From Betaproteobacteria bacterium (GTDB lineage Bacteria > Pseudomonadota > Gammaproteobacteria > Burkholderiales > SG8-39), in NCBI GenBank assembly GCA_947482825.1, contig CANKMT010000001.1, positions 62,001 to 126,000 of the forward strand: a stretch of 64,000 nucleotides of DNA, read 5' to 3'. Below, in pieces: positions 18,163-38,221 of this stretch (positions are counted from its first letter, which is position 1; each line of letters starts with the position of its first letter). Made by a program: the position numbers and the translations under genes. The notes beneath the pieces were generated by a model, which made no database searches, was not told the origin of the DNA, and saw only the letters and a program-made list of their open reading frames with translations.

Positions 18163-19182
18163 ATGAAATCCATTGCAGCAATCCTTGCCGGCCTCGCGAT
18201 CGTGTCATCGAGTCTCGCGCTGGCGCAGGACAAGCCCGAGTTGTCCACTGTGCGCCTCGGCGTCGGCGGCAAGGCCTCGCTGTATTACCTGCCGCTTACG
18301 ATCACCGAGCGGCTGGGCTATTTCAAGGACGAAGGCCTCAACGTCGAGATCAGCGACCTGCAGGGCGGCTCGAAGACCATGCAGGCGCTGGTTGGTGGCA
18401 GCGTCGACATTGCTTCGGGTGCCTACGAGCATACGATCACGATCCAGCCCAAGGGCCAGAACATCCAGGCGTTCGTCGCGCAAGGACGCTATCCCGGGTT
18501 CGCGCTCGGGGTGGTGAAAGCGAAGGCGGCGGCCTACAAGTCGCCCAAGGACCTCAAGGGCATGAAGATCGGCGTCACCGCGCCAGGTTCGGGCACGCAG
18601 ACCTTCGTCGAGTACCTGCTGAACAAGGACGGGCTGAAGGGTTCGGACGTGGCGTTCATCGGCGTGGGGTCTTCGGCCGGCGGCGCGGCCGCGGTACGCA
18701 CAGGCAAGATCGATGCAATCTCCAACATCGACCCGCTGATGACCGAGCTTGAAACCTCGGGCGATGTGGTCATCATGGTCGACACGCGCACGACCAAAGG
18801 CACGCTGGCGACCTTCGGTAGCCCGATGCCGGCCGGCACGCTCTATACGTCGAGGGAGTTCATCGCGAAAAACCCGCGCACGGTGCAGGCGCTCACCAAT
18901 GCCATGGTCCGCGCCCTGCTCTGGATTCAGAAAGCCACGCCGGCGCAGGTCGCAGACACGGTGCCGCCCCAGTACGTGCACAACCGCGAGCTTTACCTCG
19001 CCTCTTTCGCGAAAGTGCGCGAAGGCATTTCGCCGGACGGCCTGTTCCCGCGCGAGGGCGTGGAGAACACGCTGAAGATGCTCAAGGAGTTCGACGCCGG
19101 CGTCAAAGCCGCGACGATCCGGCTCGACGAAACCTATACGAACCGGTTCGTCGAGCAGGCGCTCAAAACCGTGAAACGCTAG
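18163..19182 (+). CDS. ABC-type (NMT1/TauA-SsuA-like) substrate-binding protein
   Basis: Protein of 339 residues with a signal peptide (AAILAGLAIVSSSLALAQ). The NMT1/SsuA fold is seen in ERLGYFKDEGLNVEISDLQGGSKTMQALVGGSVDIASG and DLKGMKIGVTAPGSGT. It should bind a sulfonate, nitrogenous or aromatic solute in the periplasm, but no permease or ATPase gene is near. The last 4 bases overlap the end of the convergent UGSC gene (19179-19182). Confidence 0.9.
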   Translation: MKSIAAILAGLAIVSSSLALAQDKPELSTVRLGVGGKASLYYLPLTITERLGYFKDEGLNVEISDLQGGSKTMQALVGGSVDIASGAYEHTITIQPKGQNIQAFVAQGRYPGFALGVVKAKAAAYKSPKDLKGMKIGVTAPGSGTQTFVEYLLNKDGLKGSDVAFIGVGSSAGGAAAVRTGKIDAISNIDPLMTELETSGDVVIMVDTRTTKGTLATFGSPMPAGTLYTSREFIAKNPRTVQALTNAMVRALLWIQKATPAQVADTVPPQYVHNRELYLASFAKVREGISPDGLFPREGVENTLKMLKEFDAGVKAATIRLDETYTNRFVEQALKTVKR

Positions 19183-19709
19183 CTTTGGCGCTGCATTAGC
19201 AACGGAACGATCGCCTTGACCGCGATCGCGGCCTTGGCTTTCAAGGCTGCGTCATCGTTGTTCGCAACCGGATGCTCAATGACCGCAAAAGGGTAGCCGG
19301 GCAAGCCGTTCAGTTCGCCCACCAATTCCGCGCTGCGCACGAAGCGGTCGGTCATGATCCCGACGGCCGGGATCCCGAGCCGCTCGGCTGCGATGGCGTC
19401 GTGCAGACTGCACGACGAACAGCTCCCTCAATCGCCGGTCGCGGAGAGCACCGCGTCGGCCCCCCGCAACTCCGCCAGCATTTCGGGCGGCACCGGACGG
19501 CTGGCGTCGGGCTTGCGGCGGCGGATGACCTCGCGCACGCCGTACTGCTTCCTCAGGATCTCCTCGATGAAGTCGAACAGGCGCTCGGTGCCGATCTTGG
19601 CGTTGTCGATCATGCCGATGACCGCGCCTTCGAGCGATTGCAGGGCGGGTGCCATGCGCAGCGCCTCGCCTTCGGCGGATTGCCGCGGATCCAGGACCAT
19701 GAGTGTCAT
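19179..19709 (-). CDS. UGSC-family selenoprotein, copy 1 (Sec encoded by UGA at 19428-19430)
   Basis: Reading through the UGA gives a 176-residue protein: residues 1-93, then U94-G95-S96-C97-S98-S99-C100, SLHDAIAAERLGIPAVGI, ending at TAG 19179-19181. The family is known from selenoproteome surveys by this motif. Three things support selenocysteine over a stop: a SECIS hairpin starts 11 nt after the UGA, the frame stays protein-like for 82 more codons, and selA, selB and tRNA-Sec are close by. The motif U-G-[ST]-C-[ST]-x-C, with downstream helix and IPAVGI strand, resembles the GrdB/PrdB reductase motif, so a Sec-based reductase is plausible (inference). AAGGAG precedes the ATG. It follows the 19728 partner gene by 18 bp. 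Confidence 0.92.
19398..19416 (-). promoter_or_regulatory. Bacterial SECIS element of UGSC copy 1
   Basis: On the coding strand GTCGTGCAGTCTGCACGAC forms a perfect 7-bp stem (GTCGTGC/GCACGAC) with apical loop AGUCU, which contains the GU dinucleotide that SelB recognises. It begins 11 nt after the UGA. Spacing and loop closely match the Escherichia coli fdhF SECIS as I remember it. The hairpin lies inside the codons for the S-C-S-L-H-D stretch. Confidence 0.88.
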
Positions 19710-19727: not shown

Positions 19728-20765
19728 TCAGACTACGATGGGTTCGGTAATGGCGAGCGATTTCTTGCCGTACCACGGCGGCACGATGGCGGCGAATCCG
19801 CCGGCCGGGCCGCCGGCGGCGATGACGAGCAGGTCGTCGGGCGTGCGCAGCGCGCGGTAGACCTGGTCTTCGTTCTTGCGTCCGGCAACCGCGGCCTTGC
19901 CCACGGTACGCCATTCGCCGCGTTTTACCCGAGCGACCTCGAAAACATATTCGCGGATGTTCGCTTTCGTCCAGTTCGACTCGGCGAAGATGTCGCGATG
20001 CTGCTTGGGGATGACGACCGCGTAATTCCCCTCCCAGATCGAGTAGGTCAGCATGTTGCTCTTCATCGCCGCGGCGTAGGTGTCGCAGATCTCCTTGGGG
20101 TCGTGCGTCCACTCGTTCATGATCTGGTGCGGCGATTCGACCGCCATGACCGTCACTGCCGAAGTGCCCGCGGGGATGCCGCGCTCTACCGACAGGGGCA
20201 GCCACGCGCTGCCTTCCTCGTCTTCCGCCACGCAAAACGTGAACTTGCCCGGATGGCCGAGCGTGGAACGGTCGAGCTGGCCGGGCACGCCGCCGAGCAC
20301 GTTGAGCAGGAACAGGCGCACGCTGCGCCCGATGGTGGCGTTGGCGCGGCTCCCGTTCGCAAGCACGTTGTGCGTCGAGTTCATGCCGAGCGCGGTGCGG
20401 ATCGGGCCGTTGACGACGATGAACGGCGCGCTGCCGCCGGTGCTGGCCGTGCTCCCGTGCAGGCCGACCTCGGGCCTGCACAGCGCTTTGATGATCGCCA
20501 CCACGACCGGCATGTACTCCGGGAGGCACCCGGCCATCAGCGCGGCGATCGCGACTTTCTCGGCGGTGATGCGGCGGCGGCGCACCGGCTCGACGCCAAC
20601 GGTGTCGTCCGGCTGCAGCTTCACGGCCGCGAGGAAACGCAGCACGCCTTGCTCGGTAGGAGGCACCACGGGCAGTCCGTCGGTCCAGCCGTTCTTCTGG
20701 AAGAGCTCGTTGGCTGCGAAGGCGTCTTCGACTTCGAGCGCTGCGCTCACGAGTGCACTGGTCAT
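19728..20765 (-). CDS. UGSC-partner protein (conserved W-x-D-G-L-P-V-V-P-P family), stand-alone form
   Basis: Protein of 345 residues with no recognised function. Landmarks shared with the gene at 33696-35135 are GWTDGLPVVPPT (from Gly26), AGCLPEYMPVV, VNGPIRTALGMNS, ANATIGRSVRLFL, PGKFTFCVAEDEE and a C-terminal AAGGPAGGFAAIVP. It has no signal peptide or membrane helix, so it is cytoplasmic. It lies between a CoA-transferase gene (34 bp upstream) and the UGSC selenoprotein gene (18 bp downstream) in one leftward operon. Because each UGSC gene in the window follows a member of this family, the two proteins probably form a complex or act in sequence. The conserved Cys in AGC and FCVAED are candidate active or metal-binding residues. 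Confidence 0.85.
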   Translation of the reverse strand: MTSALVSAALEVEDAFAANELFQKNGWTDGLPVVPPTEQGVLRFLAAVKLQPDDTVGVEPVRRRRITAEKVAIAALMAGCLPEYMPVVVAIIKALCRPEVGLHGSTASTGGSAPFIVVNGPIRTALGMNSTHNVLANGSRANATIGRSVRLFLLNVLGGVPGQLDRSTLGHPGKFTFCVAEDEEGSAWLPLSVERGIPAGTSAVTVMAVESPHQIMNEWTHDPKEICDTYAAAMKSNMLTYSIWEGNYAVVIPKQHRDIFAESNWTKANIREYVFEVARVKRGEWRTVGKAAVAGRKNEDQVYRALRTPDDLLVIAAGGPAGGFAAIVPPWYGKKSLAITEPIVV

Positions 20766-20799: not shown

Positions 20800-22029
20800 T
20801 CATATGACCCCCTTGCGCCGGTGGCGCTCGATGTCGGCCGGCGACAGGTTCGCGAAGCGCGCGAAGACCTCCTCGCTGTTGGCGCCCGGTACCGGCGCGG
20901 GGGAGTACTCCGCCGGAGTGCGGCTGAACTTGATCGGGAATCCCGGCGCCGAGGCTGCCGAGGGCTTGCCCGTGAGCGGATTGACCAGCGGCACGATCAT
21001 CTGCCGCTCCAACAGCTGTTCCCAGTGCATCACTTCCGCGGTCGATCGCACCGGGCTGCACGCCACCGAGGCGCGCGCCAGTTCCGCCACGATCTCGTCC
21101 TTGGTTTTCTGCGCGGTCCATTGCGTGACCACGGCATCGACCGCATCGTTGTTCACGATCCGCCATCCGATGTCCATCATGCCTTTGTCGTCCTTGAGGT
21201 CGGCGCGCCCCATTGCGTCGAGCAACGCAAGCCATTCACTGTGCGTGGCGGCGCCTATGGCCACCCAACCGTCCCTGGCGCGGAAGACGTTGAACGGCGA
21301 AAAACGCATGATCCGGTTGCCCTGGCGCGGCGCGAGATCGAGCGTCTCATAGCAATCGATCGGCTCGTCATAGATCAGCGAGAACAGGCAATCGGACATC
21401 GCGACGTCGATCCCCTGGCCTTCGCCGGTGCGCTCGCGATGCAGGAGCGCGGCGACGATGCCGTTGGCGGCGAACACCCCGGAAATCGCATCTGACAGCG
21501 CCGAGGCCGTCTTTACAGGCGGCTCGCCCGGCTGGCCGGTCATGCTCATGAGGCCCACGGCCGCCTGCACCATGAGGTCGTAGGCTTTGTCGTCTTTCGC
21601 CGGGCCGGTGGAACCGTAGCCGGTCAATGCGCAGTAGATGATCGAAGGATTCACCGCACTTAGCGCCGCATAGTCGATGCCGAGGCGCGTCGCGACGCCG
21701 GCGCGGAAATTTTCCACTACGACGTCGGATTTTTTCACCATCTCGAGGAAGATCGAGCGGCCCTCGGGCGACTTGAGATCGAGCGTGACCGATTTCTTGC
21801 CGCGCTGGCGCTTGAGGTAGGCGAGCCCCATGTCCTGCGGTGTCCTGCGCTCGAACGCGATGCCCCCGGGGCCGTCGTAGGGTGGTGCGAAGGCAGTGGG
21901 GTCACCGCCCCTGGGGTCGTCGACCTTGATGACTTCGGCGCCCATGCCGGCGAGGAACAGCGTGCATTGCGGACCGGAAAAGAACCGGGTCAGGTCCAGC
22001 ACGACCACGCCGTCCAGGATTTTCTTCAT
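20800..22029 (-). CDS. Class III (CaiB/BaiF) CoA-transferase heading the UGSC-1 operon
   Basis: Protein of 409 residues with LDGVVVLDLTRFFSGPQCTLFLAGMGAEVIKVD, RGKKSVTLDLKSPEGR, VVENFRAGVATRLGIDY, YCALTGYGSTGP and the likely catalytic Asp in KAYDLMVQAA. It is only moderately similar to the enzyme at 16982, so they probably use different acids. It is transcribed leftwards with the UGSC partner and UGSC selenoprotein. This ties the selenoprotein to metabolism of a CoA-activated compound, although that link rests only on gene order. Its start is divergent from the Bug-selA-selB-trxB operon across 119 bp, so both operons may share control. Confidence 0.9.
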   Translation of the reverse strand: MKKILDGVVVLDLTRFFSGPQCTLFLAGMGAEVIKVDDPRGGDPTAFAPPYDGPGGIAFERRTPQDMGLAYLKRQRGKKSVTLDLKSPEGRSIFLEMVKKSDVVVENFRAGVATRLGIDYAALSAVNPSIIYCALTGYGSTGPAKDDKAYDLMVQAAVGLMSMTGQPGEPPVKTASALSDAISGVFAANGIVAALLHRERTGEGQGIDVAMSDCLFSLIYDEPIDCYETLDLAPRQGNRIMRFSPFNVFRARDGWVAIGAATHSEWLALLDAMGRADLKDDKGMMDIGWRIVNNDAVDAVVTQWTAQKTKDEIVAELARASVACSPVRSTAEVMHWEQLLERQMIVPLVNPLTGKPSAASAPGFPIKFSRTPAEYSPAPVPGANSEEVFARFANLSPADIERHRRKGVI

Positions 22030-22148: not shown

Positions 22149-23123
22149 ATGCCCATCGCTTGCAAGCTGCTCCTGTCCCTTCTCGCCCTGTTCGCGTTCC
22201 ATGGCCAGGCCTGGTCGCAGGGCGCCTACCCGAACAAGCCGGTGAAGATCATCGTGGCCTTCCCGCCGGGCCAGGCCACCGACCAGGCGGCGCGCGCGAT
22301 CGCGCAGAAGCTCTCCGAAAACCTCGGTCAGCAGTTCTTCGTCGAGAACAAGCCGGGCGCGGCGAGCATCATCGGTTCGGAAGCCGCGGCCAAGTCGCCG
22401 AACGACGGCTACACGCTGTTCATGGGGTCTTCGGGCAGCCTCGCAGTGAACCCGGGCATGTACGCAAAACTGCCTTACGACCCGATCAAGGATTTCACGC
22501 CGATCTCGCTCGCGTTGAAGGTGCCGTTCTTCGTCGTGATCAACCCGGCGGTCCCAGCCGGTTCGATCAAGGAGCTGGTGGCTTACCTCAAGGCAAACCC
22601 GGGCAAGGTGAATTTCGGCTCCGCGGGCAACGGCGCGAGCAATCACCTGTCGACCGAGTTGTTCAAGAGCGTGACCGGAGTCTCGATAGTGCACGTGCCG
22701 TACAAAGGCTCGCCGCCCGCGGTGACCGACCTCCTCGCCGGGCAGATCGGCCTGATGTTCGAGACCGGCCCGCTGATCATGCCGCATGCGAAGAGCGGCA
22801 GGCTCAAGTTGCTCGCCGTGGGCAGCGCGCAGCGCTCGCTTGCCGCGCCCGATCTCGTGACGGTCGCCGAATCCGGCTATCCGGGTTTCGAGACCGTCGG
22901 CTGGGCGGGACTGCTTGCGCCAACCGGGACGCCCAGGGAAATTGTCGCGAAGCTGAATGCGGAAGTCGTGAAGATCCTTTCGCAAACCGAAGTCACCGGG
23001 CGCTTCGTCACGCTGGGCGCGGAACTGCTGAGCAGCTCAGCCGACGATTTCGGCGCCTACATCAAGTCGGAGACCGCCAAGTGGGGCAAGGTCATCAGGG
23101 AATCCGGCGCCAAGGCGGACTGA
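22149..23123 (+). CDS. Bug/TctC-family periplasmic solute-binding protein in the selA-selB operon
   Basis: Protein of 324 residues with signal peptide (LLLSLLALFAFHGQAWSQ) and family motifs AYPNKPVKIIVAFPPGQATD, VENKPGAASIIGSEAAAKS, NDGYTLFMG and VPYKGSPPAVTDLLAGQI. It binds an unknown organic solute in the periplasm. It is the first gene of the rightward operon containing selA, selB and the thioredoxin-reductase-like gene, with 21 bp to selA. A Bug receptor co-transcribed with selenocysteine machinery is unexpected and hints that the selenoproteins act on the compound it captures. Confidence 0.9.
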   Translation: MPIACKLLLSLLALFAFHGQAWSQGAYPNKPVKIIVAFPPGQATDQAARAIAQKLSENLGQQFFVENKPGAASIIGSEAAAKSPNDGYTLFMGSSGSLAVNPGMYAKLPYDPIKDFTPISLALKVPFFVVINPAVPAGSIKELVAYLKANPGKVNFGSAGNGASNHLSTELFKSVTGVSIVHVPYKGSPPAVTDLLAGQIGLMFETGPLIMPHAKSGRLKLLAVGSAQRSLAAPDLVTVAESGYPGFETVGWAGLLAPTGTPREIVAKLNAEVVKILSQTEVTGRFVTLGAELLSSSADDFGAYIKSETAKWGKVIRESGAKAD

Positions 23124-23144
23124 GCGCGCAAGGCCATTGACGCC

Positions 23145-24548
23145 ATGGCCCGCGGCGCGCTCGCTTCACTGCCTTCGGTCGATCGGCTGATCAGCTCGCC
23201 GGAGGGCGCGGCGCTATCCGCCCGGCACGGTCATGCATTGCTCGTTGAAGCCGCGCGCGCGGTGCTGGCCGAAGAGCGCGAACGGTTGTCGAAAGCCCCG
23301 GCGGCCGCAGGCGCGGACCTACCTGCGCTGACGGCGAAATGCGCCGCGTGGATCGAGACGCTGATGCGAGCGTCGCTGCGCCCGGTCTTCAACCTCACGG
23401 GCACCGTGCTGCATACCAACCTCGGGCGCGCGCTCTATCCGAAGACTGCGATCGAAGCCGCCACGCAGGCGATGGCCGGCCCGGTCAACCTCGAATACGA
23501 AATCGAAGGCGCTGCGCGCGGGGAACGAGACTCGCATGTCGAGTCATGGATCAGGCGCCTGACCGGGGCCGAAGCCGCTGTGGTCGTCAACAACAATGCC
23601 GCGGCGGTCTACCTCACCCTGTATGCTCTCGCGCGCCGCAAGGAAGTCATCGTGTCGCGCGGCGAGCTGGTGGAGATCGGCGGGTCGTTCCGCATCCCCG
23701 ACATCATGGCGAGCGCCGGTTGCAAGCTGCGCGAAGTCGGCACGACGAACCGCACGCACCCGAAGGATTTCGAAGGCGCCCTGGGCAAGGCGACCGGTGC
23801 GATCATGAAAGTGCACACGAGCAACTATTCGGTGCAGGGCTTTACCGCGACGGTGCCCGAAGCCGAGCTCGCGGCGATCGCGCACAAGCACGGCGTGCCG
23901 CTGATCAACGACCTCGGATGCGGAATGCTCGTGAACCTCGAGGACTTCGGGTTGCCGCACGAGCCCACGCCGCGCGAGGCGATCGCCAACGGCGCGGACA
24001 TCGTGACCTTCAGCGGCGACAAGCTGCTGGGCGGGCCGCAGTGCGGGCTCATCGTCGGGCGCAAGGACCTGGTCGAGCGCATCCGCAAGAACCCGATGAA
24101 GCGCGCGCTTCGCATCGACAAGGTGAGGCTAGCCGCGCTCGAGGCGGTGCTGCGCCTGTATGCGAACCCGGAGAGGCTTGCGTCGGAATTGACGACGTTG
24201 CGCCTGCTCACCCGGTCGCGGGAAGAAATCCTTTCGGTGGCGCAGCGAGTGATGCCCGTTGTCGAGAAAGCGCTGGCCGGTCAGGCCGCCGTGAGAGTCC
24301 TCGAATGCGCCAGCCAGATCGGCAGCGGGGCGCTGCCGGTGGAAACCTTGCCGAGCGCGGGAATCGCCATGATCCCGGCCGGCAAGCGCCGCAGCGGCGC
24401 CGCCGATGCGCTGGCGCGGGCGTTTCGCGCGCTGCCGGTGCCGGTGATCGGCCGCATCAACGAAGGCGAGTTCATCCTCGACTTGCGCTGCCTCGAAGAC
24501 GAGGCCGGGCTCGTCGCGCAGCTCGCCCACCTGCGGTTGCCGGGGTGA
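23145..24548 (+). CDS. selA: L-seryl-tRNA(Sec) selenium transferase (SelA)
   Basis: PLP enzyme of 467 residues that converts Ser-tRNA(Sec) to Sec-tRNA(Sec) with selenophosphate. The N-terminal helical tRNA-binding part ([13 protein letters not shown]) is followed by the fold-type I core: [12 protein letters not shown] (about 85-96), [33 protein letters not shown] and the PLP lysine Lys293 in [12 protein letters not shown]. The length and all key residues match functional bacterial SelA. The ATG is 21 bp after the Bug gene, and selB starts 4 bp after the stop. selD, which makes selenophosphate, is not in the window and must be elsewhere. Confidence 0.97.
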
Positions 24549-24552
24549 GCCG

Positions 24553-26556
24553 GTGATCGTCGCCACCGCCGGCCACATCGACCACGGCAAGACTGCCCTG
24601 GTCCGGGCGCTCACCGGCGTGGACACCGATCCGCTGCCGGAAGAGAAAGCGCGCGGCATTTCGATCGACCTCGGTTTCGCCTACCTGCGCACCCCCGGCG
24701 GCGCAACGATCGGCTTCGTCGACGTGCCCGGCCACGAGCGGTTCGTGCGCAACATGCTGGCCGGCGTCTGCGGCATCGATTTCGTTCTGTTCGTGGTCGC
24801 GGCCGACGACGGCGTGATGCCGCAGACCATCGAGCACCTGCACATCGTAGAGCTGCTTTCGGTGAAGCGTGGCATCGCGGTGATCACAAAGAGTGACCGC
24901 GTTCCCGCGGCCCGCGTGGAAGAAGTTGCGGCGAGCGTGCGCGCGCTGCTGGGGCCCACCGGACTTGCCGCGATCGAGGTGCTGCCGGTCTCGGCGTTGA
25001 CAGGCGCCGGCATGGCGCCGTTGCGCGCGGGCCTCGAAGCCGAAGCGGGAAGGCAGGGCCGGCAGGGACAGGAGGGTCGCCGGTTTCGCTATGCAGTGGA
25101 TCGAGTGTTCAGCGTGGCCGGCAGCGGGACCGTGGTGACCGGGACGGTCTTCAACGGCTCGGTGGCTGCGGGCGACAAGCTTCGGCTTTCGCCCGCCGGG
25201 ACCGAAGTGCGCGTGCGCGGCTTGCAGAAGGATGGCAAAGCCGCCACCGGCGCGTCGGCTGGCGAGCGCTGTGCCCTCAACCTGACCGGCGTCGACGTCG
25301 GTCACGTCCTGCGCGGCGATTGGGTGGTGGATCCGGGATTGCACGTCCCTACGCAACGACTCGACGTGCGCATGAGGGTGCTCGAAGACGAGAAGCGCCC
25401 GCTCGCGCACTGGACGCCGGTGCACCTGTATCTTGGCGCCGGCGACGTCCTTGCGAGGGTCTCTATCCGCCGCGGTGGTTCGATCAAGCCGGGCGAGTCG
25501 GCCGTCATGCAGTTCGTGACCGACAAGCCGGTATCGGCGCTGAGCGGCGACCGCTTCATCGTGCGCGACCAATCGGCGCTTCGCACGCTGGGCGGCGGCG
25601 TCGTGATCGATCCGGCCGCGCAACGCAAGCGTCGCAGCGCCCAGGTGCGCGCGGCGCAGCTTGCGGCGCTTGAGGCTGGAGACCCCGCCCGGGCGCTGCG
25701 CGCGTTGCAGGCATGCTCGCCGGCCGGCGTGGACCTCGACTGGTTCGCCCGCATCTTCAATCTCGACGAAGCGCTGGCCGCGTCGCTGGTGGAGGCGGAA
25801 AAGCTCGCGGTCATCGGCAAGGAGCCGCGCATTGGCCTGCCGCGGTCCGCGATCGATTCAGTCGGCGCAAGCGTGCTCGAGGCGTTGAAGAAATTCCATG
25901 CCGATTCGCCGCAGGCGGCCGGCCTCGAGGTCGCGGTCCTTCGCAGGCAGTGCGCGCCGCAACTGGCCGCGCCTACGTTCGCCGCAATCCTTCGCTTGCT
26001 GGCCGAGAAGAAGCAGCTCGAAGCGGCCGGCTCGGTCGCGCGCCTGCCCCGCCATGTGGCGACCGACAATCCGGCCGACGAGAAGATGTGGAATGCCGTG
26101 CAGCCGATCCTTCACGCTGCGGGGTACGGCGGATTGACGATTCCCGAACTCGCCGCGGCCGCCTCGGCCCGCGAGCCGCAGGTCAAGGATTTCCTGCACC
26201 GCAAGGCGAAGACCGGCGAACTGGTTCGCGCCACCGACAACCGGTTCTACCTCCGGGGCACGCTTGCGGCGTTTGCCGCCATCGCGACAGAGGTGGCGAA
26301 AGGCGTCCCCGAAGGAAAGTTCACCGCGGCGCAGGTGCGCGACCGGACCGACATCGGCCGGGGACGCGCGATCGAGATCCTCGAATGCCTCGACCGCCTC
26401 GGCATCACGCGGCGCATCGGCGACCTGCGTGTGATGGCCAAGGACTACGCCGGCATCCTCGGCGAAGCGGTGCCGCCGCCTGCGAAGACCGCTGGATCGA
26501 AGCCATTGACTCCCCCACCATCCAAGCCATCGATCAAGCGGAGACCCTATGCCTGA
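24553..26556 (+). CDS. selB: Selenocysteine-specific elongation factor (SelB)
   Basis: Translation GTPase of 667 residues that carries Sec-tRNA(Sec) to the ribosome at UGA codons marked by a SECIS hairpin. The G domain shows GHIDHGKT (7-14), DVPGH (57-61) and TKSD (112-115). EF-Tu-like domains 2 and 3 follow, then winged-helix repeats from about residue 370 to 640 that bind the SECIS loop. The last 20 residues are proline- and lysine-rich and look like an unstructured tail. Start is GTG (MIVATAG), 4 bp after selA; the 3' end overlaps the next gene by 8 bp. SelB and the SECIS elements at 19.4, 33.4 and 35.5 kb should be functional partners. Confidence 0.97.
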
Positions 26557-27445
26557 ACCTTACGACGTCCTGGTCATCGGGACCGGGATCACCGGCCTTA
26601 CCGCAGCGCGCCAGGCGCTGCGTGAAGGCCTGGTGACAGCCGCCATGGAATCGATGTTCTTCGGCGGACTGGTGACGAACATCAACGACCTCGATGGCGA
26701 ACCCGGTGGTTCCGGCAGCGACGTGTCCGCCGGGTTGATGATGGAAATCTCGCAGATGGGCGTGAAGAATATTTCGGAAGCGGCTTCTGCGATCACGCGC
26801 GACGGCGATTGCCTTGTCGTCAAGGGCGATGCGGGCAGCCATCGGGCGCGCTCGGTGATCATTGCCTCGGGCGCGCGGCTCAAGCACCTCGGCGTACCTG
26901 GCGAAGCGGAGTTGGAAGAGAAAGGCGTTTCACGCTGCGCTGATTGCGACGGGCCGTTCTACCAGGGCAAGGAAGTCGTCGTGGTGGGGGGCGGCGACTC
27001 GGCTTTGCAGGAGGCCCTCGTCCTCACCGAGTTCGCCGGCAGGGTGCACCTCGTGCATCGCGGCGAAGAATTCCGCGCGCAGCAGCATCTCGTCGATCGC
27101 CTCGCAGGGCATTCGAACATCCAAGTCCACATGAACACCCGGGTGGAGGCGGTCCTCGGTAGCGCCGCGGTCAGCGGCGTGAGGGTTCGCGCAGGCGACG
27201 GCGTATCCGAGATCGCCTGCGCAGGATTCTTCGCCTACGTCGGTCTGGAGCCTGCCAACGAATTCGTGCCGGCGGAAATCGCACGTGATGCCGCCGGTTT
27301 CCTGCAAACAGATGAGGGCCTGCAGACCGCGATGCCTGGCGTATTCGCTGCCGGCGCGGTGCGCTTCGGTTATGGAGGCATGCTCACGCATGCGATTGCC
27401 GAAGGAGAGGCCGCCGCAAAATCGGCGCTCGCATTGCTGCGATAA
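26549..27445 (+). CDS. Thioredoxin-reductase-like FAD/NAD(P)H disulfide oxidoreductase
   Basis: Flavoprotein of 298 residues of the TrxB/AhpF class: FAD site VIGTGITG (about 9-16), redox pair Cys130-Ala-Asp-Cys133 in CADCDGPFYQG, NADPH-site GGGDSA (147-152) and C-terminal VFAAGAVRFGYGGMLTHAI. Compared with typical TrxB the CxxC is CADC rather than CATC, and the interior (SMFFGGLVTNINDLDG) is shortened or variant. The start overlaps the selB end by 8 bp, so it is translationally coupled. The obvious role, by context, is to supply electrons to the thioredoxin-domain protein at 33696-35135 or directly to the selenoproteins. This is inference. Confidence 0.88.
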   Translation: MPEPYDVLVIGTGITGLTAARQALREGLVTAAMESMFFGGLVTNINDLDGEPGGSGSDVSAGLMMEISQMGVKNISEAASAITRDGDCLVVKGDAGSHRARSVIIASGARLKHLGVPGEAELEEKGVSRCADCDGPFYQGKEVVVVGGGDSALQEALVLTEFAGRVHLVHRGEEFRAQQHLVDRLAGHSNIQVHMNTRVEAVLGSAAVSGVRVRAGDGVSEIACAGFFAYVGLEPANEFVPAEIARDAAGFLQTDEGLQTAMPGVFAAGAVRFGYGGMLTHAIAEGEAAAKSALALLR

Positions 27446-27485
27446 TGCATGATGTAGTGCCATACAGAATGTGTTGGGGGCTGGT

Positions 27486-27749
27486 ATGAAAAGACTTTCC
27501 GTGCGCCTGGACGATGCCGAGTTCGCAGCGCTGTCCCGGTTGAGCGAGCAACTGGGTGAAACGCGCTCGCAGGTGGTGAAGCGTGGGATTGCGACGCTTG
27601 CGAAGCAGAAGTTGCGTGGCGCGTCGGCGAACGAACTGGCCGAAAAACTCGGGCTGATCGGCTCGTTCAAGGGGAGCGCCGACCTGTCCGAAACCGCCGC
27701 CGTCCGGATCAAGCGAAAACTCAATGCCGAAGCCGCTCTGTGTAGATAG
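27486..27749 (+). CDS. Ribbon-helix-helix (CopG-type) antitoxin, orphaned
   Basis: Protein of 87 residues starting MKRLSVRLDDAEFAALSRLSEQLGETRSQVV, a classic ribbon-helix-helix DNA-binding domain, followed by a C-terminal toxin-binding tail. The start is ATG at 27486 with a G-rich stretch upstream. It overlaps the beginning of a PIN-type toxin gene by 26 bp, but that toxin is collapsed, so the antitoxin is now without a functional partner in cis. Confidence 0.78.
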   Translation: MKRLSVRLDDAEFAALSRLSEQLGETRSQVVKRGIATLAKQKLRGASANELAEKLGLIGSFKGSADLSETAAVRIKRKLNAEAALCR

Positions 27750-27883
27750 CGGGCCTTTTATCGCTTGGCTAAACGCACGTGACAAGCACCACGCCCGTGC
27801 GGTCGAATTCTTCAGATCGGACCGACTTCTCGGTCTATCGCGGTCCAGGCGGGCACGCCTTCAGGAATCTTTTCTTCGCCTGA
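27724..27883 (+). pseudogene. PIN-domain toxin remnant with internal deletion
   Basis: The first 30 codons (MPKPLCVDSGPFIAWLNARD, then HARAVEFF) are a normal VapC-type PIN start with the first catalytic Asp. Within a few bases the sequence switches to what looks like a PIN C-terminus in another frame (TDFSVYRGPGGHAFRNLF, stop at 27881-27883). Most of the roughly 130-residue domain, including the other acidic residues, is missing. The simplest reading is a central out-of-frame deletion of about 250 bp. The continuing first frame to 27960 is basic and unlike any protein. Confidence 0.7.
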
Positions 27884-27963
27884 GAGCACGCGGTGGCCGA
27901 AGGCCTCGCCGCGGCAAGACCCGCCGGGGCACCGCTGCGATAGACTTAGAGTTGCGGTAAAGG

Positions 27964-28059
27964 GGAAGGGAATCGCTCCCGGTGGGGCGGCCGGACTTCA
28001 AACCCGGTGTGGGCCGTCTGACGGTCCTGTGTGGGTTCGACTCCCACTCTCTTCCGCCA
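27964..28059 (+). tRNA. selC: Selenocysteine tRNA (anticodon UCA)
   Basis: A 96-nt tRNA including encoded GCCA at the 3' end. The tRNA(Sec) hallmarks are all visible: an 8-bp acceptor stem (GGAAGGGA with TCTCTTCC, one G-T pair), a 6-bp D stem (CGCTCC/GGGGCG) with a 4-nt loop, anticodon loop CTTCAAA with TCA, a long variable arm (GGGCCGT/ACGGTCC), and a T arm GTGGG-TTCGACT-CCCAC. The top pair below the anticodon loop is an A-C mismatch. It is charged with Ser, converted to Sec by SelA and delivered by SelB, both encoded just upstream. It lies about 0.5 kb after the selAB-trxB operon, among gene fragments. Confidence 0.97.
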
Positions 28060-33177: not shown

Positions 33178-33699
33178 CTAGCTCACCAGCAGCTTCAACG
33201 CTCTCTCGATCGCTTCATCCGCCAACTGGTCCAATTCCTCCGCCGTCCGGTTCTGGATCGGATGCTGCACATAGACGATCGCCGGCTCGAAGCCGATCGC
33301 CTGCGATTGCGAGGCCACCGCGTCGGTGAAACCGGTCGTGACGACCGAGACGCCCGGAATCCCGCGGGCATCGAGGTTCATGAGGTCGTGCAGACTGCAC
33401 GACGTGCAGGAGCCTCAGTCCGATAATGCGATCAGAACGACGTCGGCTTTCTCCGCGACCTCTTGCAGGATCTCCGGCGTGGCGATCTTGGCGTTGGTCG
33501 GCTTGCCGGTGCGCATTGTCCTGATGTTCTTCTCGTGCAGGCGCATTTCCACGCGGTCGAGGAACTCCTTCGTCTTGGCCTTGCCGATGTCGAACAGGGC
33601 CACCGTCTTGCCGTCGAGCGAAGGCGGCGGCTTCAGGCGCGCGCGCTTGAGCGGCGAGGTTTCAGGCGTCGGGTCGCGCATCCAGTTCATCGCGGTCAT
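33178..33699 (-). CDS. UGSC-family selenoprotein, copy 2 (Sec encoded by UGA at 33415-33417)
   Basis: With the UGA read as Sec, this is a 173-residue protein: 94 residues, then U95-G96-S97-C98-T99-S100-C101-SLHD, then ARGIPGVSVVTTGFTDAV and a helical C-terminus. It aligns along its length with copy 1: ALFDIGKAKTKEFLDRVE matches MIDNAKIGTERLFDFIEE, and ADVVLIALSDU matches ADAVLSATGDU. The ATG overlaps the stop of the thioredoxin-fused partner (ATGA, 33696-33699), with AAGGAGAT as ribosome site. A SECIS hairpin identical in sequence to that of copy 1 sits at the same 11-nt distance. Standard gene callers would split it into two pieces. Predicted cytoplasmic; likely a Sec-based redox enzyme. Confidence 0.93.
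33385..33403 (-). promoter_or_regulatory. Bacterial SECIS element of UGSC copy 2
   Basis: The same 19-nt hairpin as copy 1 (7-bp stem GTCGTGC/GCACGAC, loop AGUCU) begins 11 nt after the UGA. The flanking codons differ between the two genes (GGC TCC TGC AC here, GGG AGC TGT TC there) while the hairpin is unchanged. That suggests selection on the RNA structure. Confidence 0.88.
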
Positions 33700-35135
33700 G
33701 GCTTGATCTCCTTGGTGACGGGTTGCAGTTCGAAACGGTTGCGCCCGGCGATCCAGCCCGGGAGGATTGCGGAAAACAGGCCGGCGGGGCCGCCGGCGCG
33801 CACGATCATGAGGCCGTCTTCGTAGAACTTGGGCACCTGCTTGTCGGCGAACGCGGCCGGCAGGCCCTCGCCGACGCCTTGGGCGCCGGCCACGAGGTCC
33901 TTGCCGGGCCGCACGGTGGCGGCGAGGATCGCGGCCTCGATGCGCTTGCGGTCCCATCCGCCCTCGGCAAAGATCGCGTAGTGCTCTGGCGAGAGGACGA
34001 GGATCGCGCGCTGCGACTGCGCGACCTTGGGGTGGCCGATCGCGCACAGCCCCATCGCGAGCGAGCGGGCGAGGTCCTCGGGCGAACGCGATTTCTGGTC
34101 CATGAATCCCTGCACGCCTTCACCCTGGAACAGCGTGACCGTGGACTGGCCACGCGCGAATCCGCGCGAGACCGACAGCGGCTCCCAGCCCGGGTCGGAT
34201 TCGTCCTCGGCGAAGCAGAACGTGTACTTGCCCGGGTTTCCCAGCGTTGCGCGATCGACTTCGCCGGGCCGGCCGCCGCCGACATTGCGCACGATCAGTT
34301 GCAGCGCACGGCCAATGGTTGCGTTGGCGCGATTGCCTTGGCCGAGCGCATTGATGCCTGAATTCATCCCGATGCGTTTGGCCACCGGACCGTTCACGAT
34401 GATGATCGGCCCGGAAAAGTAGGTCGTCGCGAGCACGCCGTGCAGCGTGAATTCCGGCACGAGCGCTGCTTCGAGCGCAGCCAGCACGACCGGCAGGTAC
34501 TCCGGCTTGCACCCCGCCATGACGGCGTTGATCGCGGCTTTTTCCACCGTGCATTCGGCGAGGTTCGGCGGGATGGGGCCGAGCACTTCGTTCGGTTTGC
34601 GGGTCGTTCCCTGCAGCATGCGCAGGATGCGTACGTCGGTGGGCGGCACCACCGGCAGGCCATCGCTCCAACCGCGTTCGAAGCAGGCTTCGATCGGGTC
34701 GTCGTAGTCGCCGTATTCGATCTTGCGCGACTTGAGTCCCGGATCGCCGAACTTGACCTGGAGGTATTCCGCCAGACCGGGCTCGACGCTCTTCGATCCG
34801 CAGCCCGGGCGCAACGCCGGCATCCCGGCGCCGAGGTCCGCGATGCCTGTGACTCGCCGCCATTCGTTGATATCCCAGCCTTCGGTGCGCGTGGTCTCCT
34901 TGCCGTTCTCGTAACGGATCAGGGTCGGGACGATCTCGATGCCGTGCCGGAAGGACTCGCCGAGTTCGCGATCGTCGATGACCCCGGGCAACTGCTCCGG
35001 GAAAGTCGGGTCATCCTGCGAATAGACCTTGAGGGCCTGTCCGCCTTGTGCAAGCGTGCGCAGCACCGGTGCGACCAACTGGCAGGTCGGGCAGTCGCGC
35101 TTGGCAAAGACTGTGAGGGAAACGCCAGTGCTCAT
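33696..35135 (-). CDS. UGSC-partner protein fused to an N-terminal thioredoxin domain
   Basis: Protein of 479 residues. Residues 1-100 are a thioredoxin-like domain: active site Cys15-Pro-Thr-Cys18 in AKRDCPTCQLV and the cis-proline loop IVPTLI (about 68-73). A short linker has Cys112 in RPGCGSKS. From about 140 to the end it matches the partner at 19728: GWSDGLPVVPPT (from Gly155), AGCKPEYLPVV, VNGPVAKRIGMNS, ANATIGRALQLI, PGKYTFCFAEDES, AGGPAGLFSAILP. The fusion implies that the partner domain works with a dithiol electron donor, and therefore that the UGSC selenoprotein downstream does too. It is 24 bp after the AhpD-like selenoprotein gene, and its TGA overlaps the UGSC-2 ATG. Confidence 0.88.
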   Translation of the reverse strand: MSTGVSLTVFAKRDCPTCQLVAPVLRTLAQGGQALKVYSQDDPTFPEQLPGVIDDRELGESFRHGIEIVPTLIRYENGKETTRTEGWDINEWRRVTGIADLGAGMPALRPGCGSKSVEPGLAEYLQVKFGDPGLKSRKIEYGDYDDPIEACFERGWSDGLPVVPPTDVRILRMLQGTTRKPNEVLGPIPPNLAECTVEKAAINAVMAGCKPEYLPVVLAALEAALVPEFTLHGVLATTYFSGPIIIVNGPVAKRIGMNSGINALGQGNRANATIGRALQLIVRNVGGGRPGEVDRATLGNPGKYTFCFAEDESDPGWEPLSVSRGFARGQSTVTLFQGEGVQGFMDQKSRSPEDLARSLAMGLCAIGHPKVAQSQRAILVLSPEHYAIFAEGGWDRKRIEAAILAATVRPGKDLVAGAQGVGEGLPAAFADKQVPKFYEDGLMIVRAGGPAGLFSAILPGWIAGRNRFELQPVTKEIKP

Positions 35136-35159: not shown

Positions 35160-36272
35160 TCAGGGCTCGCCGCGCACGCGCGGGAATTCGTTGACGCCGG
35201 CGCGTTCGCGGATCTCGGGCGCATCGCTGCCGCGCGCCGCGGTTTCGTAGGGAATGCCGATCGCATCGGCTATGCGAACGAATCCGTGAAAAGCGGCGAT
35301 CACCGCGGCCGCGTCGACGAGGCCGGCTTCGCCGAGCACGGCAAGCAAAGCACCGCGGGCGGCGGCCGTGCGCGTTTCGTCTCGCATCACAACGGCTTCG
35401 GCAAACTCGACCAGCGCCGCGGCATTCGGGATGTCGACGGTCTCGTCGAATCCCGCGGTGACGCCGCGCACATCGACCTGGCGTCCCTTGATTTGCATGC
35501 TCTCACGGAGCATGTAGGCGTGAGCCGTCGTTCAATAAGCGCACTGGTGCATGGCCGAGACGCGCGCGGCAAGGATCTCGACCTGAGGCCGCTCGATGGC
35601 GCGGATCGAGGTGCCGAACTGGTAGACGTACTCGCCGGGCAGGTAGTGGCAGTTGGCCAGCGCCGTGTAGTCGCGCACTGCCTGAGGCACCAATGACAGC
35701 CCGCGGTAGATGTAGCCTGCTTTCGGGTTTGGGTACAAAGGGCCGTCGGATTCGACCGCGTCTTCGGGCTCGACCAGCGGCAGCCAGGCGGCCTTCTTTC
35801 TTGCGCCCGGGGGCCGGTAGCGGCTGGGTTCGCCGGCGGCGTGCGCGGGGAGATCGCGAAGGGCAAGTCCCAGCGCGCGATGGCAGGTGTCCATGATCAT
35901 GACCATCGCCACGAGGCCGACGATCTCGACGTATTCGCCTTCGGACACTCCCTTGGCGAGCATGGACGCCGACCATTTCTCTGTCAGGCGTCCCGGATCG
36001 GTCACCACGCGATGGACCAACTCGGCCTGCGCTGCGCCGAGCGTCCCAAGCGTGTCGTGCGCGCCTTCGACCGTATTGGGCGACAGCGCCGCCTTGATGC
36101 GGGCGCAATGGGCGCAGTCGCGTGCATAGCGGATTTCCGCGGAGACGGCGACTCGCTGGGCGCCGGTGAGCCAGGTGCCGGGCGCAGCAATTGCGGCCCA
36201 GGCGCGCTCGTGCGCTTCCGTCAGGTCGGGGCGGACCGGGAAAGGGCTTCCTGCGAAAGACTGGGTGGGCAT
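35160..36272 (-). CDS. Duplicated AhpD/carboxymuconolactone-decarboxylase-like selenoprotein (Sec at UGA 35532-35534, CxxU motif)
   Basis: Reading through the in-frame UGA gives a 370-residue protein. An N-terminal AhpD-like unit has Cys53-Ala-His-Cys56. A second unit has Cys244-Ala-Tyr-U247-Thr-Thr-Ala-His251, the AhpD C-x-x-C-x-x-x-H site with Sec in place of the second Cys. The frame continues for 123 codons past the UGA with helical AhpD-like sequence (VRGVTAGFDETVDIPNAAAL, EFAEAVVMRDETRTAA). A SECIS-like hairpin lies 17 nt downstream. AhpD-like Sec proteins are known in bacteria; AhpD reduces disulfides of peroxidases. GGAGG precedes the ATG at 36272. It is the first gene of the AhpD-Sec / Trx-partner / UGSC-Sec operon and is divergent from the thiolase gene. 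Confidence 0.9.
35496..35514 (-). promoter_or_regulatory. Bacterial SECIS element of the AhpD-like selenoprotein
   Basis: On the coding strand CATGCTCCGTGAGAGCATG forms a perfect 7-bp stem (CATGCTC/GAGCATG) with loop CGUGA, containing GU. It starts 17 nt after the UGA, so the loop G is about 26 nt away, inside the range known for bacterial SECIS elements. An alternative CTCACG/CGTGAG pairing with an 11-nt loop is also possible. Confidence 0.75.
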
Positions 36273-38049: not shown

Positions 38050-38202
38050 ATTAAATGGGGCCAGGCTCGATTTTTTTCGAAGTCGTACGACGCTCACTGC
38101 GAACGCGAAAAATCGAATTAATTGGGGCCAGGTTCGATTTTCTGCATTTGTTGCGGGCAATGTACGGTTTGGAGAAAAATCGAGCCTGGCCCCATTTAAT
38201 TC
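38048..38202. repeat. REP-like inverted-repeat element (155 bp, three copies of a GGGGCCAGG-TTCGATTT unit)
   Basis: Perfect 28-bp inverted arms at 38048-38075 and 38175-38202 share the core AATGGGGCCAGGCTCGATTT. A third, slightly diverged unit in the left-arm orientation (AATTGGGGCCAGGTTCGATT) lies at 38115-38141. Motifs of the GGGG(T/C)CAG type flank REP-associated tyrosine transposase elements in many betaproteobacteria, so this looks like a non-autonomous member; no transposase gene is present. It starts inside the DUF35 stop codon and ends 19 bp before the next start. Confidence 0.85.
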
Positions 38203-38221
38203 CCGACACCATTTTTTTCAA

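Follow-up and report, generated by a model that had tools for sequence, protein, structure and literature searches.

The 64,000-nucleotide stretch of contig CANKMT010000001.1 of a Betaproteobacteria bacterium analyzed here (the window) contains two gene pairs, each encoding a selenocysteine (Sec)-containing protein of the UGSC family and a partner protein with the motif W-x-D-G-L-P-V-V-P-P. UGSC and this partner probably form a two-part, Sec-dependent reductase for imported organic acids that is driven by NAD(P)H and a thioredoxin reductase (TrxR)-like flavoprotein, with a chemistry that we infer from the selenoproteins GrdB, PrdB and FarB. Both pairs are on the (-) strand, and UGSC directly follows the partner gene. 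In the first pair, the stop codon of the partner overlaps the start codon of UGSC (ATGA); the partner starts with a CPTC domain and contains GWSDGLPVVPPT, and the 173-aa UGSC frame has one TGA and reads ...SDUGSCTSCSLHDLMNLDARGIPGVSVV.... The second partner contains GWTDGLPVVPPT, and its UGSC protein reads ...GDUGSCSSCSLHDAIAAERLGIPAVGI.... Thus, both proteins have one in-frame TGA at U-G-S-C, as claimed in an earlier note on this DNA. They matched PF24696 with 131 and 168 bits, which is beyond chance at a cut-off of 25; with NF041046 (cut-off 125), the first protein scored 126.8 bits and the second, just under the cut-off, 124.9 bits. The genome of the window has four UGSC genes with one in-frame TGA each, and all four passed PF24696, whereas none of the four passed the cut-off of NF041046 in the genome search. 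By itself, the short DNA motif was not beyond chance (3 matches versus 1.49 expected).

The Sec machinery (tRNA-Sec, selA and selB) is present in the window, and in both UGSC genes the UGA is followed by a hairpin (z of -1.7 and -2.1). When the hairpins of 28 UGSC genes (every third gene of one set plus the second window gene) were aligned, 91.1% of the cells of the 8-bp stem were able to pair, a value reached by none of 500 shuffles. Changes on both sides of the stem were found in three of the eight pairs, a number that 32 of the 500 shuffles attained as well, and the outermost pair failed in 11 of the 28 genes. Altogether, the hairpin moderately supports the reading of UGA as Sec. U-x-x-C was found in all copies with the codon in view in two sets (77/77 and 31/31; three further pieces end short of the codon), and U was present in 30/30 copies in each of two other sets. 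Natural Cys forms of UGSC were found at loci L115 and L114, the latter with a TGA elsewhere. The set of 80 UGSC rows was selected for [UC]GSC, with two rows left out for lacking it, and therefore the invariance of G-S-C in these 80 is built in.

Sequence comparisons point to UGSC as a remote homologue of the Sec-bearing C-terminal domain of GrdB/PrdB. The first UGSC protein of the window matched the GrdB profile TIGR01917 at positions 320-420 of 431 (E 3.7e-5) and sarcosine GrdF with an E value of 6.7e-5; the second matched the GrdB profile with an E value of only 0.025. When 80 UGSC sequences were scanned singly, matches with an E value of at most 0.01 were obtained for 35 with TIGR01917, 13 with TIGR01918 and 9 with PrdB. 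Comparison of profiles, suggested in the earlier note as a check of a GrdB/PrdB-like nature of UGSC, came out in its favor: hhalign gave a probability of 93.5% for UGSC and the C-terminal 337-351 residues of three GrdB relatives, 92.9% for 16 shorter proteins of the GrdB/PrdB kind and 95.5% for a 15-member mixture, each time with Sec aligned on Sec, and 1.5% in the single control, UGSC against the partner. Moreover, an HP pair shared by all 80 UGSC rows was aligned with HPLGN of one GrdB relative. The three GrdB relatives are end-to-end matches of TIGR01917 that remain below its cut-off (450.6, 417.2 and 407.4 bits versus 602.2). Their Sec motifs are U-G-T-S-T-R-C, U-G-T-S-T-R-S and U-G-T-G-V-R-C; the motif U-G-T-C-T-R-C-G, given in the earlier note for glycine/proline reductase subunits, was not seen in them.

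The likeness to GrdB/PrdB is one of distant homology, and UGSC itself is not GrdB or PrdB, since the rest of GrdB is missing, the partner is unlike GrdB and GrdE, and GrdA was not found. UGSC is far below the cut-off for full-length GrdB (22.8 versus 602.2 bits with TIGR01917), and with TIGR01918 it scored 18.8 bits at positions 310-420 of 431 only (cut-off 65.45). The partner was compared with three GrdE relatives and with GrdB, and both assignments were rejected (profile probabilities of 0.1% for GrdE and of 0.1 and 1.7% for GrdB). GrdA (PF04723) was found in none of 10 UGSC genomes, whereas the same search was positive in both of two control genomes with full-length GrdB relatives. The 10 genomes are listed as 91-99% complete; thus, GrdA could be missed in one of them but hardly in all 10. 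If UGSC loaded the substrate in an ordinary glycine reductase and passed the carboxymethyl group to GrdA, its homology with the Sec domain of GrdB would be explained, but GrdA and a GrdE-like partner would be expected as well, and we regard this function as extremely unlikely. The GrdB/PrdB-like nature put forward in the earlier note was thus supported in part, as distant homology. In Tectomicrobia and Dehalococcoidia (L091, L092 and L105), end-to-end relatives of GrdB and GrdE were seen, in genomes in which GrdA is present. A first search for the GrdB family gave partial relatives only, in 5 of 150 genomes including that of the window. The window genome has two GrdB-family-like selenoprotein genes (L087 and L089, contigs 46 and 59) with U-P-V-C-H-Q and partial matches to TIGR01918, and thus the UGSC and GrdB-like kinds coexist.

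The partner belongs to an unnamed protein family, and gene adjacency as well as natural fusions tie it to UGSC. A scan of a genome collection gave at least 594 pattern matches, 583 of which encode relatives of the partner. In the best 80 of these 583 (79 distinct loci), 74 of 90 partner genes have a UGSC gene in the same orientation at a distance of at most 300 bp. Judged by title, these loci come from Betaproteobacteria, Chloroflexota, Deltaproteobacteria, Binatia, Rokubacteria, NC10, SAR324 and one Actinomycete. Starting from UGSC, the partner was present in 55 of 60 loci (26/30 and 29/30). Since the genomes of these 60 loci had been reached via the partner, the fair sample is a set of 398 genomes drawn evenly from the phylum. 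There, UGSC was found in five genomes, the window genome included, and the partner adjoined UGSC in all five places of the four other genomes. The earlier note had proposed the W-x-D-G-L-P-V-V-P-P protein as a new subunit, and it is indeed a regular partner of UGSC. Natural single-frame fusions, with UGSC first and the partner second, numbered 8, 0 and 11 in three sets and 20 in the regions of G452, a genome of the same family as the window genome. At another locus (L076), a stretch of 6.7 kb has three partner paralogues, and UGSC is not in view there.

The 345-aa partner had no match in Pfam or NCBIfam at an E value of up to 1 or in PHROGs at an E value of up to 0.001, and four Pfam names with E values of 0.03-0.09 among 93 partner members were taken as chance. 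A pyruvoyl proprotein was rejected, as no column of the 93 partner sequences has an invariant Cys, Ser or Thr. Two Cys residues are near invariant (C80 in 91/93, C178 in 86/93; two sequences have Ala at C80 and seven have Val at C178), and Arg, Asn, Glu and Trp residues are conserved. AlphaFold2 modeled the partner with a mean confidence (pLDDT) of 94.2 and a natural UGSC-partner fusion with a pLDDT of 87.2 and a predicted template modeling score (pTM) of 0.86. In the model of the fusion, the UGSC domain is predicted to be doubly wound alpha/beta, with Sec right after the third strand, and the fold matches listed for it were receiver domains, periplasmic binding proteins, lumazine synthase and similar. 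There was no thioredoxin among the 50 PDB matches of the UGSC domain taken from the top 1000 chains of Foldseek. The predicted secondary structure appears unlike the thioredoxin-like fold that PMC2398784 had guessed as likely for UGSC and is evidence against it, though a list of best matches may miss others.

If UGSC is a reductase, it needs a source of electrons, and here the N-terminal domain of the first partner comes in. The earlier note had read this CPTC domain as a thioredoxin, and in fact all 27 PDB matches at an E value of up to 0.01 are thioredoxins (best E 2.9e-5). As a single sequence, the domain is below the cut-offs of Pfam and NCBIfam, but 11 homologues share C-x-T-C and V-P-T, and C15, T17, C18 and P70 are invariant. 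The sequence thus identifies the domain as a thioredoxin, which is carried by one subfamily of the partner, found at 11 loci. At nine further loci (L201-L209), the gene of the thioredoxin-carrying partner is followed in 9/9 cases by a Sec UGSC gene with U-G-S-C-T-S-C; a tenth locus, L210, is cut by the contig end, and the Cys form at L115 has the same layout.

The TrxR-like gene in the sel operon of the window, which the earlier note had also pointed out, matched TIGR01292 over residues 5-294 with 243.1 bits, below the cut-off of 343.45. In a survey of 10 genomes, two of which (G463 and G479) had been searched for the partner and not for UGSC as a family, 13 proteins matched it with at least 40% identity and 12 with 32-38%; 7 short or weak matches were excluded. 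By contig coordinates, 12 of the 13 genes of the TrxR-like clade have a UGSC module at a distance of up to 15 kb, compared with none of the 12 ordinary TrxR genes (Fisher p 2.7e-6, relatedness ignored). In five cases, the strand is shared and the distance is less than 200 bp, with the genes arranged as UGSC-partner-TrxR. The linked clade has CADC, CAHC or CAWC, versus CATC in seven ordinary TrxR copies that were fetched. selB and the TrxR-like gene are adjacent in five of nine CADC loci (the window, L251, L253, L255 and L261); among the remaining four, one is truncated by a contig end. At L217, L256, L257, L259 and L260, a CAHC/CAWC TrxR-like gene is in one run with UGSC of the U-G-S-C-T-P-A type and partners. 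The electron route is thus supported by fusion and gene linkage, and the linkage of the TrxR-like clade is the stronger finding on electron supply.

In the window, the gene for an AhpD-related selenoprotein (NF041238, E 4e-134) lies directly upstream of the gene of the thioredoxin-carrying partner on the same strand. Since this arrangement was found among such loci only in the window and at L201, we take the AhpD-related gene as an extra and not as part of the module. It bears on a further reading, in which UGSC is a thiol/disulfide or peroxide-type detoxification reductase and the partner binds the oxidized target. The AhpD neighbor, the U-x-x-C motif, whose bearers among selenoproteins are mostly regarded as such reductases, the linkage to thioredoxin and TrxR and the likely thioredoxin-like fold of UGSC in the 2008 paper (PMC2398784) would all fit such an enzyme. 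However, the UGSC domain and its listed matches are of the doubly wound alpha/beta kind by prediction, the homology points to GrdB, and the AhpD-related gene is present at only 2 of 10 thioredoxin-partner modules with UGSC in view (one upstream side is cut off). Moreover, a role in catabolism agrees better with the TctC receptors linked to the modules and with genomes that have as many as 31 UGA-containing copies. Therefore, we consider a role in detoxification unlikely.

G452 had 34 UGSC matches, 31 of them with one in-frame TGA, and 25 and 19 matches were found in G477 and in G484, a genome of the same order as that of the window. In the stretches of G452, the partner was present in 31/31 modules examined, and a TctC gene was found within 500 bp of 22 of the 31. 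If all 701 TctC candidates of this genome are counted as real, each module is expected to have 0.12 (p 6e-14); against the local TctC density in these stretches, the p value is 2e-8, and neither value takes clustering into account. Many UGSC-partner fusions with TctC neighbors were seen in G452, G477 and G484 (L204, L211-L220 and L223-L240). Around L211-L220, 65 of the 77 open reading frames (ORFs) listed were scanned; TctC led with 25, followed by 3 MmgE/PrpD and 3 acyl-CoA dehydrogenase genes. Next to the second window pair are CoA-transferase III-like genes and a gene for an SsuA-like binding protein, all of them below the family cut-off. These neighbors suggest organic acid uptake and breakdown, with one module per compound.

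We propose the following mechanism. UGSC would be a free-standing Sec domain of the GrdB/PrdB kind, in which Sec ends the third strand of the predicted fold and the resolving Cys follows three residues on. The partner would be a separate, diversified subunit, most likely binding and orienting the substrate. The selenolate would attack an activated carbon of the substrate and displace the leaving group, giving a C-Se intermediate, from which the resolving Cys would free the product with formation of a selenenyl-sulfide. Thioredoxin, which one subfamily carries as a fused domain, would then re-reduce the selenenyl-sulfide together with the TrxR-like flavoprotein at the expense of NAD(P)H. From the linkage to TctC receptors, the substrates are probably organic acids imported via these receptors. 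For GrdB/PrdB, an attack of the selenolate on the substrate carbon and cleavage of the selenoether by a thiol are described in passages of PMC10298544, which call parts of this undocumented.

Several observations weigh against this assignment. The region shared by UGSC and GrdB comprises only about 75-100 residues, and a search of the PDB by sequence gave no GrdB structure with which the fold of UGSC could be compared. The third Cys of U-G-S-C-x-x-C, which the earlier note had taken as part of a shared motif, is not a feature of the family (53 of 80 rows) and is lost in many members, and U-G-G-C, U-G-A-C, U-G-N-C, U-G-R-C and U-S-S-C occur as variants. G452 has a great many TctC genes in any case (at least 150 copies; 150 scored of the 701 candidates). 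There is no TctC gene within 6 kb of the first window pair and none within 1.3 kb of the second. In a mostly non-betaproteobacterial set of neighbors (109 ORFs scanned of 135 listed and 369 in total), no family was dominant, the commonest being luciferase-like monooxygenases (7) and the major facilitator superfamily (5); thus, the link to TctC rests on one lineage. Also, 16 of the 90 partner genes have no UGSC within 300 bp, several of them being cut by contig ends, and the partner may therefore sometimes act alone or in trans. Finally, the modeled partner gave only weak fold matches (Foldseek TM scores mostly around 0.2; best Z score 6.8 over 85 residues), among fumarate hydratases, cyclic amide hydrolases and chorismate-mutase-like domains, and we do not derive a function from them.

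The last two observations bear on two more readings. If Sec were the nucleophile of a non-redox reaction, with UGSC as part of a hydrolase, lyase or isomerase and the substrate in the partner, the matches to fumarate hydratases and cyclic amide hydrolases and the conserved Arg, Asn, Glu and Trp of the partner would make sense. Such a reaction would leave the thioredoxin fusion and the TrxR operons pointless, and it does not call for the resolving Cys at +3 that is present in every copy with the codon in view in the two sets checked, which makes it improbable to us. We give about the same low weight to the partner as the enzyme and UGSC as only its redox activator or regulator: the partner is larger and diversified, has two near-invariant Cys and is found without UGSC nearby at the 16 genes mentioned, but the homology of UGSC is with a Sec domain that is catalytic, and C178 and C80 are replaced in some partners. 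A two-part reductase with Sec as the attacking group thus stays the reading that we prefer.

A heme-copper oxidase subunit I was found in all eight genomes tested, and UGSC would therefore be a Sec reductase of bacteria able to respire oxygen. It is possible, if short of probable, that UGSC modules make up a large Sec-reductase superfamily of respiring bacteria, in which a generic GrdB-derived Sec domain is combined with dozens of interchangeable substrate subunits, own uptake receptors and a dedicated TrxR and cleaves C-N, C-S, C-O or C-halogen bonds of environmental organic acids, with up to 31 copies per genome. If bond cleavage in imported acids is true, Sec-dependent reductive cleavage as known from anaerobes would operate in bacteria equipped for oxygen respiration. 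The link to the Sec domain of GrdB, the regular partner and the dedicated thioredoxin/TrxR route define an enzyme that is open to reconstitution, so that a long-standing mystery family becomes testable at the bench.

The UGSC family as such is already known, as PF24696 and NF041046, and was in print by 2008. In the passages of PMC2398784 covered here, it ranks among the main selenoprotein families in samples from the ocean, with some copies fused to a domain called Unknown_1, and passages of a 2026 review (PMC13188914) place it among largely uncharacterized families; no function for it was given in the literature passages covered. The largest bacterial selenoproteomes in passages of that review have 57 and 63 genes, and most of the richest organisms are described there as anaerobic; thus, 31 UGSC genes are notable for one family but no record. 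The earlier note had expected a Sec-dependent reductive cleavage system outside Clostridia to be new. As far as the passages covered go, the UGSC family, a UGSC fusion and GrdB/PrdB-like selenoproteins outside Clostridia were all in print; no paper linking UGSC with GrdB homology, with the partner or with the TrxR-like clade was found in a search that had most subscription journals and bioRxiv outside its reach.

The features of the window are compiled in the table. Between the TrxR-like gene and tRNA-Sec (27447-27960), a small ribbon-helix-helix antitoxin-like ORF and a short PIN-like ORF were seen by eye. Also by eye, a repeated, partly inverted unit like GGGGCCAGG-TTCGATTTT was seen at 38050-38205, between two coding genes.

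Table. UGSC gene pairs of the window and the genes around them (window positions; SECIS, selenocysteine insertion sequence)
Feature	Position	Strand	Remark
UGSC selenoprotein gene 2	19179-19709	(-)	UGA at 19428-19430
SECIS-like hairpin 3' of UGA, second UGSC gene	19398-19416	(-)	
Second partner (345 aa)	19728-20765	(-)	without thioredoxin domain
CoA-transferase family III-like gene	20800-22029	(-)	directly upstream of second pair
TctC-like receptor gene	22170-23120	(+)	precedes selA
selA	23124-24545	(+)	open frame
selB	24553-26553	(+)	
TrxR-like flavoprotein gene	26549-27442	(+)	CADC; overlaps end of selB
tRNA-Sec	27964-28055	(+)	74.4 bits
UGSC selenoprotein gene 1 (173 aa, Sec is residue 95)	33178-33699	(-)	single open frame, PF24696 match
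SECIS-like hairpin 3' of UGA, first UGSC gene	33385-33403	(-)	
In-frame UGA (Sec codon), first UGSC gene	33415-33417	(-)	
First partner (479 aa)	33696-35135	(-)	N-terminal thioredoxin domain
Thioredoxin domain of first partner	34836-35135	(-)	CPTC, VPT
AhpD-related selenoprotein gene	35160-36272	(-)	NF041238; C-A-Y-U, UGA at 35532-35534

Among known systems, thioredoxin and TrxR are the closest relatives of the proposed electron route: the N-terminal domain of the first partner is a thioredoxin by its matches, and the window reductase matches TIGR01292, differing from ordinary TrxR in its score below the cut-off and, with its clade, in having CADC, CAHC or CAWC instead of CATC. With GrdB/PrdB (TIGR01917, TIGR01918 and TIGR04483), UGSC shares a seemingly homologous Sec-bearing C-terminal domain; it differs in lacking the N-terminal part, in having a partner that is neither GrdB- nor GrdE-like and in occurring in genomes in which GrdA was not found. 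FarB/FarE of Synergistota are, in passages of PMC10838667, relatives of GrdB/GrdE without a pyruvoyl group that are proposed to cleave fluoroacetate and predicted to feed the glycine reductase proteins A and C; UGSC and its partner, in contrast, are not full-length GrdB/GrdE relatives, and GrdA was not found with them. What both systems would have in common is a Sec subunit with a non-pyruvoyl partner and a co-encoded transporter, and for FarB/FarE the same passages propose cleavage of an alpha-substituted acetate. Since this cleavage is proposed to proceed without a pyruvoyl group, a pyruvoyl partner may not be needed by UGSC either.

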